DNA from: Blastococcus sp. TF02A-35
GTDB lineage: Bacteria; Actinomycetota; Actinomycetes; Mycobacteriales; Geodermatophilaceae
Length of the DNA stretch: 64,000 bases
NCBI RefSeq assembly: GCF_004571075.1
Contig: NZ_SPQP01000009.1
Coordinates: 1 to 64,000, forward strand
Reading direction: 5' to 3'
A program made the translations under genes and the position numbers. The notes below the pieces were generated by a model. It made no database searches. It was not told the DNA's origin and worked only from the letters and a program-made list of their open reading frames with translations. This document shows positions 47,416-52,041 of the stretch, piece after piece. Numbering within the stretch: position 1 is the stretch's first letter; every line of letters begins with the position of its first letter.

Positions 47416-49410
47416 ATGTCGCAGGCGGAGGCGGAGGCCGTGCTCAGCGGTCTCGACGACGAGCAGCGCGAGGCGGCGCAGGCGGTGTCGGGCCCGGTCT
47501 GCATCCTCGCCGGCGCCGGGACCGGGAAGACCCGGACCATCACCCACCGCATCGCCTACGGCGTGCACACCGGCACCTACGTGCCCGAGCAGGTGCTCGC
47601 CGTGACCTTCACCGCCCGTGCCGCGGGCGAGCTGCGCGCCCGCCTCGCCGGCCTCGGCGTGGGCGGGGTCCAGGCCCGCACCTTCCACGCCGCCGCGATG
47701 CGCCAGCTGCGCTACTTCGCCCCGCGGGTGCTGGGCGGCCCCATGCCCTCGCTCATCGAGAACAAGCTGCGCGTGGTGGCCTCGGCGGCCACCCGCAACC
47801 GGCTCACCACCGACCGGACCAGCCTCCGCGACCTGGCCAGCGAGATCGAGTGGGCCAAGACCACCCTGGCGACGCCGGAGGACTACCCGGCGCGCGCGAA
47901 GGCGGCCGGCCGCGAGGCGCCGTTCGAGCCGGCGGCGGTGGCCGCGGTGTACGCCAGCTACGAGTCGGCGAAGCAGCGCGACGGCTCGCTGGACTTCGAG
48001 GACCTGCTGCTGGTCACCGCGTACGCCATCGAGGGCAACCCGGACGTCGCCCGGCAGGTGCGGGCGCAGTACCGGCACTTCGTCGTCGACGAGTACCAGG
48101 ACGTCAACCCGCTGCAGCAGCGGCTGCTCGACGCCTGGCTGGGCGGGCGGGCGGAGGTCTGCGTCGTCGGCGACCCGAACCAGACCATCTACTCCTTCAC
48201 CGGCGCCAACCCCGACTACCTGCTGGGGTTCGCCGACCGGTACCAGGACGCCGCGGTGGTGAAGCTGGAACGCGACTACCGCTCGACGCCGCAGGTCGTC
48301 GGGCTGGCCAACAAGCTCATCGGCATGGCACCGCGGCGCAAGGGCCTGCCCGGCCTGCGGCTGCTGGGCCAGCGGGCCGAGGGTGCCGAGCCGCGCTTCA
48401 CCGAGTACCCCGACGAGCCGGCCGAGGCCGCCGCCATCGCGGCGCGGTGCCGGGCGCTGATCGACGAGGGCATGCCGGCGGCGGAGATCGCGATCCTGTT
48501 CCGCATCAACGCCCAGTCCGAGGTCTACGAGAACGCGCTGGCCGCGGCCGGCGTCCCCTACGTGCTCAAGGGCGGGGAGCGGTTCTTCGAGCGCCCCGAG
48601 GTGCGCGAGGCAGTCCTGCTGCTGCGCGGGGCGGCGGCAGGTGGCAACGACCCGGGCATGCTCGTGCCCGCGGTCCGCGACGTGCTGGCCTCGACCGGGT
48701 GGGCCGAGCACCGGCCGCCGCCCGGGGGAGCGGCCCGCGACCGCTGGCAGTCGCTGGCCGCGCTGGTCGACCTGGCGGTGGACCTGGTGGCCGAGAACCC
48801 CGCGCTCGACCTCGGCGGCTTCGTCGACCACCTGGCCCAGCGGGCCGACGCGCAGCACGCGCCCACCGTGCAGGGCGTCACGCTCGCCTCCATGCACGCG
48901 GCCAAGGGCCTGGAGTGGGACGTCGTCTTCGTCGTCGGCCTCGTGGAGGGGGTGCTCCCCATCGCGCAGTCGCTGAGCCGTCCCGACGCGGTGGAGGAGG
49001 AGCGGCGGCTGCTGTACGTCGCCATCACCCGGGCACGGGAGCAGCTGTCGCTGTCCTGGTCGCTGGCGCGCAACCCCGGCGGACGCCGGGCGCGGCCGCG
49101 CAGCCAGTTCCTCACCGGGCTGGCTCCCGAGTCCGGCCCGACCGCGCCGCCGGCCCGCCGGCCGGCCAAGAAGGCCAAGGTCGTGCTCGAGGGCGAGGCG
49201 GGGGAGCTGTTCGAGCGGCTCCGCGCCTGGCGCAGCCAGGCGGCGCAGACGCAGTCGGTGCCGGCCTACGTGGTGTTCTCCGACGCCACGCTGCAGGCGA
49301 TCGCCGAGAGCCGGCCGACCAGCCTGCGCGAGCTCTCCGGGCTGCCCGGGGTCGGCGCGAAGAAGCTCGACCTGTACGGCGAGGACGTGCTCGCCACCGT
49401 CAGCGGCTGA
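47416..49410 (+). CDS. uvrD2: ATP-dependent DNA helicase UvrD2
   Basis: The 664-residue SF1A helicase has Walker A AGAGTGKTRT near residue 37, FTARAAGELRARL, VVDEYQDVNPLQQRLL, GDPNQTIYSFTGA, HAAKGLEWDVVFVVGL and AITRAREQL. A C-terminal HRDC domain follows (about residues 585-664, ELFERLRAWR, ESRPTSLRELSGLPGVG). This is the UvrD2 layout of Rv3198c, a helicase that is essential in M. tuberculosis. The tetracysteine motif that links motor and HRDC in mycobacterial UvrD2 is absent; the linker here is basic (RRPAKKAK). The ATG at 47416 has GGAGGG upstream. Confidence 0.92.
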   Translation: MSQAEAEAVLSGLDDEQREAAQAVSGPVCILAGAGTGKTRTITHRIAYGVHTGTYVPEQVLAVTFTARAAGELRARLAGLGVGGVQARTFHAAAMRQLRYFAPRVLGGPMPSLIENKLRVVASAATRNRLTTDRTSLRDLASEIEWAKTTLATPEDYPARAKAAGREAPFEPAAVAAVYASYESAKQRDGSLDFEDLLLVTAYAIEGNPDVARQVRAQYRHFVVDEYQDVNPLQQRLLDAWLGGRAEVCVVGDPNQTIYSFTGANPDYLLGFADRYQDAAVVKLERDYRSTPQVVGLANKLIGMAPRRKGLPGLRLLGQRAEGAEPRFTEYPDEPAEAAAIAARCRALIDEGMPAAEIAILFRINAQSEVYENALAAAGVPYVLKGGERFFERPEVREAVLLLRGAAAGGNDPGMLVPAVRDVLASTGWAEHRPPPGGAARDRWQSLAALVDLAVDLVAENPALDLGGFVDHLAQRADAQHAPTVQGVTLASMHAAKGLEWDVVFVVGLVEGVLPIAQSLSRPDAVEEERRLLYVAITRAREQLSLSWSLARNPGGRRARPRSQFLTGLAPESGPTAPPARRPAKKAKVVLEGEAGELFERLRAWRSQAAQTQSVPAYVVFSDATLQAIAESRPTSLRELSGLPGVGAKKLDLYGEDVLATVSG

Positions 49411-49449
49411 CCCGCGAGGGACTCGTCGCACCCGTCCGCGGGATCTCCG

Positions 49450-49489
49450 ATTAATTCGTTTGACCGCATCTCGGCCGTCCCCCTAGTGT
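49450..49489 (+). promoter_or_regulatory. whiB7 promoter with AT-rich WhiB7-type element
   Basis: TTGACC (49460-49465) and TAGTGT (49484-49489) form a good sigma-A promoter with 18 bases between. ATTAATT (49450-49456) ends exactly three bases before the -35 box and is one of the few AT-rich spots in the window. In mycobacteria WhiB7 with SigA binds such an element through its AT-hook, so autoregulation is expected. Transcription should start near 49496. Confidence 0.75.
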
Positions 49490-49568
49490 CCTGACACACA
49501 CGAGCTGCGCCCCCGTGCGATCCCGGCCGACCGGCCAGGACGCGGACAGAGGAAGGAGGGGCACTTCG

Positions 49569-49868
49569 ATGATCACCATGAACCGGACCGCCACCTCCGC
49601 CGATGTCCTGAGCCGTGGCGGCTTCGAGCCGGTCAACGGCTCCGCCGCCCCGTCCGGCGCCACCGGTCTGTCCCTCGCCCCGTGCACCGGCTGGGCCCTC
49701 ACCGCTGCCGCCCTCCGCGCCCCCGCCACCCGTGTGCCCGCCATCGCGGGCGTCCTCGGCAAGCGCCGGGAGCAGGCCCTCGTCGAGCGCTTCCTCGCGC
49801 CGACCCACACCCCCACCGACGACAGCACCCCCCTCGGGATCCACTCCCCGGGGAGACCGCAGAGCTAG
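49569..49868 (+). CDS. 99-residue leader ORF upstream of whiB7
   Basis: The ATG at 49569 has a strong ribosome binding site (AGGAAGGAGG) and opens a 99-codon frame with high-GC third positions: MITMNRTATSADVLSRGGF, an Ala/Pro-rich middle, then GVLGKRREQALVERFLAPTH and an SPGRPQS end. It resembles no family I know. The stop lies 20 bases before an intrinsic terminator that precedes whiB7. In mycobacteria and Streptomyces a translated leader ORF controls whiB7 by attenuation: stalled ribosomes prevent the terminator. This frame is in that position but is unusually long. It may be a leader, a real protein, or both. Confidence 0.6.
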   Translation: MITMNRTATSADVLSRGGFEPVNGSAAPSGATGLSLAPCTGWALTAAALRAPATRVPAIAGVLGKRREQALVERFLAPTHTPTDDSTPLGIHSPGRPQS

Positions 49869-49887
49869 CGCTCGACCGGTCCTCCTC

Positions 49888-49932
49888 GAGGCCGCGGAAC
49901 CCGAACCCCGGGATCCGCGGCCTCTTCGTTTC
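49888..49932 (+). terminator. Intrinsic terminator (attenuator) in the whiB7 leader
   Basis: GAGGCCGCGGA (49888-49898) pairs perfectly with 49914-49924, and the T-containing run TTCGTTTCT follows. It lies between the leader ORF and whiB7, about 75 bases before the whiB7 start. Read-through would be needed for WhiB7 production. Confidence 0.65.
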
Positions 49933-50009
49933 TCCGCGGCACCCGGCCCCCGACCTCGGTCGGCGGAGCCCCCGCCGGCCGTACCCGACGAGTACGAGGA
50001 GGAGCGGCA

Positions 50010-50378
50010 GTGCAGCAGACGATCGACCGCCCGACGTCCCACCGCCGACCCGGGCTCCCCCGGACCGGTGGACCGACGCCGACCTTTCCCCACCCGCCTC
50101 AGCGGGGACGTCCCCGTCCGCCCCTGTCACCCGCGCCGGTGCGGCTCCCGCTGCCGTGCCGGGTGGAGGACCCGGACCTGTGGTTCGCCGAGAGCCCGAG
50201 CGAGCTGGAGCTCGCGAAGGGCTTCTGCGGCAGCTGCCCGGTGCGCCAGAAGTGCCTGGCCGGTGCGCTCGACCGCGCCGAGCCGTGGGGCGTCTGGGGC
50301 GGCGAGATCTTCGAGCGCGGCGTGGTCATCGCCCGGAAGCGGCCCCGTGGCCGCCCCCGGAAGGTGGTCGCCGCGTGA
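50010..50378 (+). CDS. whiB7: WhiB7-type iron-sulfur transcription regulator
   Basis: The 122-residue protein has the WhiB core: cysteines C50, C73, C76 and C82 for a 4Fe-4S cluster, the segment DPDLWFAE, the GVWGGE turn that contacts sigma-A, and a C-terminal AT-hook RGRPRK (residues 113-118). WhiB7 activates genes for resistance to ribosome-targeting antibiotics. M. tuberculosis WhiB7 is about 92 residues; this one has about 30 extra N-terminal residues rich in Pro, which include a second RGRP (32-35). Location after uvrD2 matches Rv3197A. GTG 50010 follows GGAGGAG. The regulator is probably controlled by its own promoter and the attenuator upstream. Confidence 0.95.
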   Translation: MQQTIDRPTSHRRPGLPRTGGPTPTFPHPPQRGRPRPPLSPAPVRLPLPCRVEDPDLWFAESPSELELAKGFCGSCPVRQKCLAGALDRAEPWGVWGGEIFERGVVIARKRPRGRPRKVVAA

Positions 50379-50428
50379 GCACCGAGACCAGCGACGAGCA
50401 GTCCTCCAGCAGACCGAAGGAAGCAGCC

Positions 50429-50593
50429 ATGTACACCACCGAGCACGAACTGGCCCGCAGCCGGCACGCCGAGCTGCAGGCCGAGGCGGAGGCCGTCACC
50501 CGCGCCCGCCGTCTCTACCTGGCCAGGCGGTCCGCCCGCCGGGCCGAGCGTGCGGTCCGCCGGGCCGCGCGCGCCAGCGCCGCCGTCTACTGA
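50429..50593 (+). CDS. Small basic helical protein downstream of whiB7
   Basis: From ATG 50429 (AAGGAAG upstream) the frame encodes 54 residues: an acidic first half (YTTEHELARSRHAELQAEAE) and a very basic second half (ARRLYLARRSARRAERAVRR). One long helix is likely. An in-frame GTG at 50375 overlaps the whiB7 stop (GTGA) and would add 18 residues, so co-translation with whiB7 is possible. The charge pattern suggests nucleic acid or ribosome binding. The family is unknown to me. A hairpin terminator follows, so it is part of the whiB7 transcript. Confidence 0.6.
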   Translation: MYTTEHELARSRHAELQAEAEAVTRARRLYLARRSARRAERAVRRAARASAAVY

Positions 50594-50600
50594 CGGCGGT

Positions 50601-50647
50601 GGGCAGCCGGGCCCGGCGTCTCCCGGTGCGTCCGGACCCGGCTGCCC
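50601..50647. terminator. Bidirectional hairpin ending the whiB7 transcript
   Basis: GGGCAGCCGGG (50601-50611) pairs with 50637-50647 across a 25-base loop, between the small basic protein gene and the convergent kinase gene. Confidence 0.6.
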
Positions 50648-50653
50648 CTCCGG

Positions 50654-51976
50654 TCAGTCCTTGAAGCCGGGGAGCCACTCCTCGAGGACCGCACGCCAGT
50701 CGGCGTCGGCGTCGAGCTGGCACAGCACCCCGATCGAGCCGATCGTCACCCGGTGGATGAGCAGGTAGGCCGGGGGCAGGTTGAGCTGGCGCCCCAGCCG
50801 GTTGGCCTCGGTCCGCGGGTCGGCGATGCGGGCTGCCTGCTCCTGCATCCACGCCCGGGTGAAGTGGAAGTGGCTGCCGGCCACCGGCTCAAGCAGGGGG
50901 CGCAGGTAGTCCAGGACCCCCTCGGCGTCGATGTCCACCCCGGGGCGCACGAAGCCCTCCGTGCGCAGGTCGGCCAGCACCTCCCCGGCGCGGCCGGCCA
51001 GCGCCCAGCGCAGCAGCCGGCCGATCGGCTCGGGATGGCCGTCGGGGAGCCGCGCGGTGGCGCCGAAGTCGATGACGCCCAGCCGGCCGTCGGGCATCAG
51101 CCGGAAGTTCCCCGGGTGCGGGTCGGCGTGCAGCAGCCCGGCCCGCTGCGGACCGGAGAAGTGCAGCACCGCGAGCAGGCGCCCCGCCCGGTCGCGCTGC
51201 TCCCGCGACCCGTCGGCGATCACCCGGGACAGCGGCGTCCCCTCCATCCACTCGGAGACGACGACCTTCGGGGCGCTGGCCACCACCCGGGGCACCGCGA
51301 TCTCCGGGTCACCGGCGTACGCGGCCGCCATCGCCCGCTGCGCGTCGGCCTCCAGGCCGTAGTCCAGCTCCTCGGCGACCCGGGCCTTGAGCTCGGCGAT
51401 CAGCGGCTTGACGTCCAGCCCCGGGAACAGCGAGGCGAACAGCCGGGCGAAGCGGGCCAGCTGGTTGAGGTCGGCCATGAGCGCCGTGCCCGCGCCCGGG
51501 TACTGGATCTTCACCGCGACGTCGCGGCCGTCGCGCCAGGTCGCCCGGTGCACCTGCCCGATGCTCGCCGCCGCCGCGGGCGTGTCGTCGAACTCGCGGA
51601 ACCGCTGTCGCCAGGTGCCGCCCAGCTGCTGGGCGAGGACGGCGTGCACCGTCCGCACCGGCATCGGCGGCGCCTCCTCCTGGAGCTTGACCAGCGCCTC
51701 GCGGTAGGGGGCGGCCATCTCCTCGGGGACCGCCGCCTCGAACACCGAGAGCGTCTGCCCGAGCTTCATCGCGCCGCCCTTGAGCTGGCCCAGGACGGCG
51801 AACAGCTGCTCGGCCGTCCGCTGCTGCAGCTCGGCGTTGACCGCCTCCGCCGACTGGCCGGACAGCCGCTTGCCCAGGCCGAGCGTGGCCCGGCCCGCGG
51901 CACCCAGGGGGAGCGACGCCAGCCGGGCGGTGCGCGAGACCGACCCCCGCGGCATCACCGGTCGCTCGTCACTCAC
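50654..51976 (-). CDS. AarF/ABC1/UbiB-family atypical kinase
   Basis: The 440-residue protein has the UbiB markers: KGGAMKLGQ near residues 66-74 (KxGQ motif over the active site), AAAASIGQVHRA (Ala-rich loop), VAVKIQYPG (lysine), and HADPHPGNFRL with VIDFGATAR (catalytic and metal-binding segments). UbiB proteins are atypical ATPases tied to isoprenoid-lipid or quinone metabolism. It corresponds to Rv3197, which has been linked with macrolide resistance beside whiB7. GTG 51976 has GAGGAGG four bases upstream. Confidence 0.9.
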   Translation of the reverse strand: MSDERPVMPRGSVSRTARLASLPLGAAGRATLGLGKRLSGQSAEAVNAELQQRTAEQLFAVLGQLKGGAMKLGQTLSVFEAAVPEEMAAPYREALVKLQEEAPPMPVRTVHAVLAQQLGGTWRQRFREFDDTPAAAASIGQVHRATWRDGRDVAVKIQYPGAGTALMADLNQLARFARLFASLFPGLDVKPLIAELKARVAEELDYGLEADAQRAMAAAYAGDPEIAVPRVVASAPKVVVSEWMEGTPLSRVIADGSREQRDRAGRLLAVLHFSGPQRAGLLHADPHPGNFRLMPDGRLGVIDFGATARLPDGHPEPIGRLLRWALAGRAGEVLADLRTEGFVRPGVDIDAEGVLDYLRPLLEPVAGSHFHFTRAWMQEQAARIADPRTEANRLGRQLNLPPAYLLIHRVTIGSIGVLCQLDADADWRAVLEEWLPGFKD

Positions 51977-52041
51977 ACGTCCTCCTCGCCGGCGCGGGGA
52001 GAGCGGCGCCGTGTCGTGTCCGGTGAGCGGCGTGGGCGCGC

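Follow-up and report, generated by a model that had tools for sequence, protein, structure and literature searches.

The window analysed here, a 64,000-nt stretch of DNA from a probable Blastococcus (Geodermatophilaceae), a soil bacterium, contains a whiB7 locus in which an AT-rich element, a promoter, a leader ORF (uORF), a terminator and whiB7 follow one another in that order (Table 1). The encoded WhiB7 carries a Whib domain (PF02467, E 5.6e-15 in a Pfam scan), and both the GVWGG motif and the AT-hook KRPRGRPRK are present letter for letter; the latter is named as a motif in the available part of PMC6282962. The AT_hook model gave 14.5 bits, under its cut-off of 17.4. The remaining Wbl-like matches in this genome score much worse (E 7.5e-9 at best), and the closest named locus, among the best 80 of 547, is that of Blastococcus sp. 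TBT05-19 (92% over WhiB7). An Rfam search of 48000-52000 returned nothing relevant. The neighbours between 46976 and 52783 are a mycoredoxin-type glutaredoxin, a UvrD helicase with an HRDC domain and an ABC1-type kinase, an order that we take to be the one around M. tuberculosis whiB7. This kinase is closest to MABP-1 (543 bits, under the model cut-off of 800); in Streptomyces too, according to the accessible text of PMC13118837, an ABC1 kinase is syntenic with whiB7.

Table 1. Features of the whiB7 locus, in window coordinates
Feature	Position	Strand	Remarks
AT-rich element ATTAATT	49450..49456	+	putative WhiB7 AT-hook site; 3 nt before -35
Promoter TTGACC - 18 nt - TAGTGT	49460..49489	+	-35 49460-49465; -10 49484-49489
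uORF, 99 codons	49569..49868	+	ATG 49569; strong SD GGAAGGAGG; stop TAG 49866-49868
Mid-uORF frozen element	49659..49673	+	consensus in the family GGGACCGGTCTGCCC, in the window GCCACCGGTCTGTCC; codon usage departs strongly from leader background
Antiterminator outer helix, 5' strand TCGGG-A-TCC	49834..49842	+	within last 11 uORF codons; predicted partner 49896-49904 GGAACCCGA
Antiterminator inner helix, 5' strand (uORF C-terminus)	49847..49859	+	predicted; co-evolves with post-stop region
Hairpin GAGC-TAGC-GCTC	49862..49873	+	uORF stop TAG in loop; predicted fold, co-evolution
Post-stop strand of antiterminator GACCGGTCCTCCTCGAGG	49874..49891	+	predicted fold, co-evolution
Intrinsic-type terminator GAGGCCGCGGA-15 nt-TCCGCGGCCTC-TTCGTTTCTCC	49888..49935	+	8-11 stem pairs in 97/97 family loci
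whiB7	50010..50378	+	GTG start; TGA stop 50376-50378; 122 aa
Downstream basic ORF, 54 aa	50429..50593	+	Arg/Ala-rich; omega 0.26

The original prediction, made from the letters of this stretch, had placed a WhiB7-type promoter here; its element, hexamers and spacing read exactly as described, and the related loci bear it out. A rule that requires at least 4/6 at -35 plus TAnnnT recovered a promoter in 90 of the 97 family loci. TTGACC itself occurs in 82/97; the spacer is 18 nt in 80 of the called loci and 17 nt in 10; and at least five of the seven bases at -10 to -4 before the -35 are A/T in 89 of the 90, or 89/97 of the family. Some of the seven uncalled loci have a visibly similar site with TTGCGG replacing TTGACC (three were displayed). 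ATTAATT matches GAAAWY, the consensus printed for Streptomyces WblC in the available part of PMC7157823, at only 4/6 positions. Because the strict promoter pattern, the one form searched for, has one exact match in the genome, namely whiB7 itself, no regulon is shown. A generic scan reported neither promoter nor terminator at the whiB7 locus, so the case for the locus rests on conservation: it is the conserved arrangement of promoter, uORF and terminator that excludes chance.

This conservation was surveyed in 112 genomes of the same family. WhiB7 was found in 107, and the analysis took in 103 loci, all brought into the same orientation; the four others (G036, G066, G067 and G071) lie close to contig ends and were left out. 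An iterative HMM recovered the leader ORF in 97/103; of the six loci that it missed, four carry a terminator and a 63-71-codon uORF, and the other two are without upstream sequence. The two features on which the original prediction leaned, terminator and ORF, are thus kept together in 101/103 loci, the remainder being the pair without upstream sequence. In the 97 HMM-found loci the uORF is 74-134 codons long (median 102), begins with GTG (49), ATG (45) or TTG (3), is preceded by a 6/6 SD in 92, and has its stop codon 19-27 nt from the terminator core GGCCGCGG. This core of the 5' arm (49890-49897 here) is identical in all 97, and reads GGCCACGG in those mycobacterial and Nocardia loci for which the terminator was displayed. 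In the window, the 99-codon ORF with its strong ribosome binding site and the perfect 11-bp terminator (arms 49888-49898 and 49914-49924, 15-nt loop) that starts 20 nt after the uORF stop and precedes whiB7 are both as first described; the T-tail is weak. Termination efficiency is uncertain, because the U-tract is short and weak and the generic scan was negative.

Outside the family, a uORF with an SD is followed, 12-45 nt beyond its end, by a GGCC[AG]CGG-like terminator in 110 of 118 loci. Among the eight that fail are loci whose best match is plainly no terminator of this kind (e.g., L172, L180 and L192); another, L265, has a good terminator and no ORF by the rule used. We also used these loci to judge the view that 99 codons is unusually long, which they do not support. 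Taking the longest start with the best SD, their uORFs span 37-202 codons (median 74) and 25/110 reach at least 99; taking the shortest start, they span 8-172 (median 67) and 20/109 reach that length, both ends of these ranges including miscalled starts (L205, for example, is 202 codons by its longest start versus 108).

The original prediction had also proposed that RNA folding be used to look for an antiterminator that pairs with 49888-49898, and such a structure is indeed predicted. When the family leaders were folded without the 3' arm of the terminator, the end of the uORF found its partners in the post-stop region and in the 5' arm and loop of the terminator (at least six cross pairs in 95/97 loci, and at least 11 in 76/97); when the 3' arm was added, the terminator formed in 97/97. 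The same kind of fold gave at least six cross pairs in 109 of the 110 outside-family loci. One result counts against the model: with the whole naked leader folded, 56/97 loci still hold six or more antiterminator pairs. The body of the uORF is neither more nor less structured than its codon permutations (mean z 0.25; 33 of the 97 loci).

We then compared duplex energies of cognate strands with those of swapped strands, expressing co-evolution as permutation z-scores that take no account of phylogeny. Within the family, the scores were -9.8 for the uORF C-terminus with the post-stop region and -7.5 for the stop hairpin; the outer antiterminator helix was not significant (-1.0), and the terminator arms (0.7) were without information. 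The family clades carry either TCGGG/CCCGA or CCGGGT/ACCCGG, which differ by a one-base register shift and so amount to a single difference between clades, not to a series of independent changes. A cross-family set was considered alongside, comprising 109 outside and 10 family loci thinned to 77 sequences less than 85% alike. Here z reached -9.9 for the uORF end with the terminator, -10.6 for the C-terminus with the post-stop region, -7.5 for the stop hairpin and -13.6 for the terminator arms, which are matched to each other across families; control uORF segments some 90-120 nt upstream gave 0.8 and -0.2. At a 70% cut (30 sequences) the outer helix, inner helix, stop hairpin and terminator scored -6.1, -5.6, -3.1 and -10.4 (controls, 1.5 and 1.1). 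At the strictest cut (16 sequences) the outer helix, inner helix and terminator retained -4.5, -3.0 and -7.6 (controls, 2.8 and 0.5), and the signal for the stop hairpin was gone (-0.3). These comparisons suggest that both RNA states, antiterminator and terminator, have comparative support. The core of the terminator 5' arm appears, from its identity across the loci, to be more constrained than a hairpin alone needs.

Transcription attenuation of whiB7/wblC that is mediated by a uORF has been described in Mycobacterium and Streptomyces, as set out in the available parts of PMC10727445, PMC9618640, PMC11550727 and PMC13393426; the accessible text of PMC4128351 likewise presents a uORF and attenuation in mycobacteria, and that of PMC6282962 a small ORF within the long wblC 5' UTR. 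Our locus fits an attenuator of this published kind, and what is added is the comparative evidence. We consider it very probable that a conserved actinobacterial whiB7/wblC attenuator explains the arrangement, as the original prediction held: its parts, their conservation, the alternative folds and the helix co-evolution, all established computationally, support that reading, as does the lack of peptide constraint described below. Studies of this uORF-mediated attenuation were reportedly made by Burian and Thompson (2018) and by Lee et al. (2022).

We envisage the switch as follows. RNA polymerase would start at the promoter next to the AT-rich element, and a ribosome would load on the uORF. 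Once at the stop codon, in the loop of the hairpin, the ribosome would cover the last uORF codons, that is, the 5' strand of the antiterminator; the terminator could then form and whiB7 would be off. Were ribosomes to slow or stall earlier in the uORF, the last codons would be free to pair with the 5' arm and loop of the terminator as well as with the post-stop region, no terminator would form, and both whiB7 and the downstream 54-aa gene would be transcribed, after which WhiB7 would amplify its own promoter. In this scheme we infer the effects of ribosome position, the induction by drugs, the autoregulation and the co-transcription of the small gene.

A further observation concerns the manner in which the uORF is conserved. 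Its last codons are frozen: at codon -4, AGA accounts for 62 of 66 Arg, and AGC and CTC account for 89/89 Ser and 64/64 Leu. The retention of AGA is what the predicted pairing requires; pS is 0.068 in the last 14 alignment columns versus 0.183 in the body, and the C-terminus would look conserved because it forms the antiterminator 5' strand. We estimated omega in 40 pairs of loci, none of them overlapping, that had been selected by WhiB7 nucleotide distance: it is 1.14 for the leader versus 0.20 for whiB7 in the same pairs, and the downstream ORF gave 0.26 in 37 pairs. By part, the leader gave 1.30 in the first columns, 1.16 in the body and 0.91 in the last 14 columns; the closest 20 pairs gave 1.07, 0.17 and 0.22 for leader, whiB7 and downstream ORF, respectively. 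Pairs chosen by low leader pS gave higher values (in 48 pairs, 1.31 for the first codons, 1.59 for the body and 1.13 for the last codons; 1.26 for the leader in the 30 closer ones), inflated because the pairs were picked in that way. Nor is a leader omega above 1 a sign of positive selection, because strong third-position G+C (GC3 0.91) also holds synonymous change down. Purifying selection on the leader peptide as the main force is not supported, and the dN/dS comparison proposed with the original prediction thus turned out against a conserved protein: the peptide is unconstrained and the C-terminal RNA is constrained. We interpret these data to suggest that the open frame, the position of its stop and the C-terminal RNA are under selection, and that the peptide is not. 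We put the coding-like composition of the leader down to its being translated and to its choice of codons, and not to conservation of the peptide. Searched against Pfam and NCBIfam, the leader peptide reached the cut-off of no family; a match to Phage_TAC_6 (E 0.0058, below cut-off) was taken as chance, and the idea that the peptide represents a protein family was rejected.

A second frozen stretch lies in the middle of the uORF. At codons ~28-35 the family leaders keep CCG nnn CAG GGG ACC GGT CTG CCC, with GGT used for 69/75 Gly (background 16%), CTG for 65/65 Leu and CCC for 67/75 Pro (the associated p-values ignore phylogeny). Where the second Gly is replaced by Arg, Ala or Asp, the third-position T is retained in 13/17 cases (82 loci), and L and V at the element mostly keep TG. 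By regular expression, a related motif was recognised in 15/109 uORFs outside the family, eight with CAG before it, Nocardia and other families being included; the element was not recognised in mycobacterial loci by the same means.

These codon-level patterns bear directly on whether the uORF is instead a drug-sensing arrest peptide in which the nascent chain causes the stall, as in the ErmCL-type leaders of resistance genes. Such leaders respond to ribosome drugs, a property that in principle would be shared by the locus described here, and the family uORFs do conserve two peptide-like motifs, GTGLP and GIHSPGRPQS. However, the motifs keep codons rather than residues, the C-terminal one is explained by RNA pairing, and the body of the peptide varies freely; unlike ErmCL leaders, the family uORFs have no conserved nascent peptide, and we judge this explanation improbable. 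A still less probable one, that the 99-codon ORF encodes a functional small protein and that whiB7 sits in an ordinary operon with the terminator as a partial operon terminator, draws on the strong SD, the frame held open in 97/103 loci by HMM and the coding-like composition (GC3 0.91). Against it stand the omega of 1.14 in 40 pairs, far from the 0.20 and 0.26 of whiB7 and the downstream ORF, the failure to match any Pfam or NCBIfam family at its cut-off, and the freezing of the conserved stretches at the codon level; a peptide without purifying selection is unlikely to function as a protein, and the earlier idea that the leader could itself be one is not upheld. The least probable reading, a constitutive terminator with whiB7 controlled at the promoter alone, accommodates the conserved WhiB7-type promoter and a terminator present in 101/103 loci, but leaves unexplained both the co-evolving pairing of uORF end with terminator and the narrow distance from stop to core.

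Returning to attenuation by uORF translation, the family loci resemble the known whiB7/wblC systems in having a uORF, a Rho-independent terminator, an antiterminator (here predicted) that overlaps both, an AT-rich element before the -35 and a WhiB7 with an AT-hook. They differ from the named Mycobacterium loci, in which uORFs are 42-67 codons, in the lengths found by HMM (74-134), the four additional family members being at 63-71; peptide sequences and the outer antiterminator helix differ by family; and the frozen mid-uORF element is, by regular expression, not recognised in the mycobacterial loci. The classical ribosome-mediated attenuator is that of trp. The mycobacterial ilvB leader is another, according to the available part of PMC13236596. 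As in those two, antiterminator and terminator would be mutually exclusive, and a ribosome at the stop codon would permit the terminator. On the other hand, the whiB7 leader is without a run of one regulatory amino acid, and the sensor here would be a general slowing over ~100 codons (the median leader has 15 Ala). We argue that the switch reads the progress of ribosomes and not a particular peptide; this would account for the response of a single leader to many unrelated ribosome inhibitors. An antibiotic-response switch published mainly for mycobacteria and Streptomyces is extended here to the soil family Geodermatophilaceae. Literature searches on whiB7 and wblC listed no title on a Geodermatophilaceae locus; some of the comparative points may already be in Lee et al. 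(2022).

What the mid-uORF element might contribute was approached through its possible partners. A helix between it and the uORF C-terminus, analogous to 1:2 pairing in trp, was rejected: cognate pairs were worse than swapped ones (z +2.6, 91 loci), and just 3/91 ORF-only folds agreed. Duplexes with the post-stop region reach -17.8 versus -11.3 kcal/mol for control segments (76 loci), with no significant co-evolution (z -1.5), and in four Nocardia-type loci no post-stop partner appeared among the best duplexes. Local hairpins around the element showed no consistent partner in 76 loci, and no compensating changes. RNA polymerase pauses at a consensus of the form G-11 G-10 ... T-3 Y-1 G+1. The corresponding pattern GG-N6-T-N-Y-G occurs at the element in 67/97 uORFs versus 5.7 expected from synonymous redraws, a pattern that was picked after the element had been seen; the window's own copy, which is without G-10, does not match it. 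We tentatively propose that a second frozen RNA or DNA element of the form ~CAGGGSACCGGTNTGYCC, rather than a peptide motif, may in Geodermatophilaceae, Nocardia and several other actinobacterial families cause RNA polymerase to pause, giving the ribosome time to catch up before the antiterminator forms or fails to form, and that a basic protein of ~54 aa, which follows whiB7 in many actinobacteria, may be turned on by the same switch. The available parts of the papers that came from searches on whiB7/wblC attenuation and small proteins contained no mention of either. Both are raised here as concrete points for testing.

The downstream ORF that encodes this basic protein is, by its omega of 0.26, a real gene under purifying selection. 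A scan of 13 members gave no Pfam or NCBIfam model that would name it; a weak MscS_porin match in one member (E 0.011) was ignored. Relatives follow whiB7 in 99 of the 102 family loci that extend far enough to tell, and in 26/82 of another set of loci, five of the 26 also being family members. A profile search found the ORF in at least 65 of 296 genomes of the class, its own included, a lower bound because at most 22 candidates per genome were scored. Among the matches listed, 50 of the 64 other genomes have a whiB7 position, and in 45 of these 50 the small gene lies directly downstream, at 42-225 nt. Four of the five exceptions belong to a single family, f19 (G198, G127, G252 and G272), in which the relative of the small ORF, again among the matches listed, lies away from whiB7.
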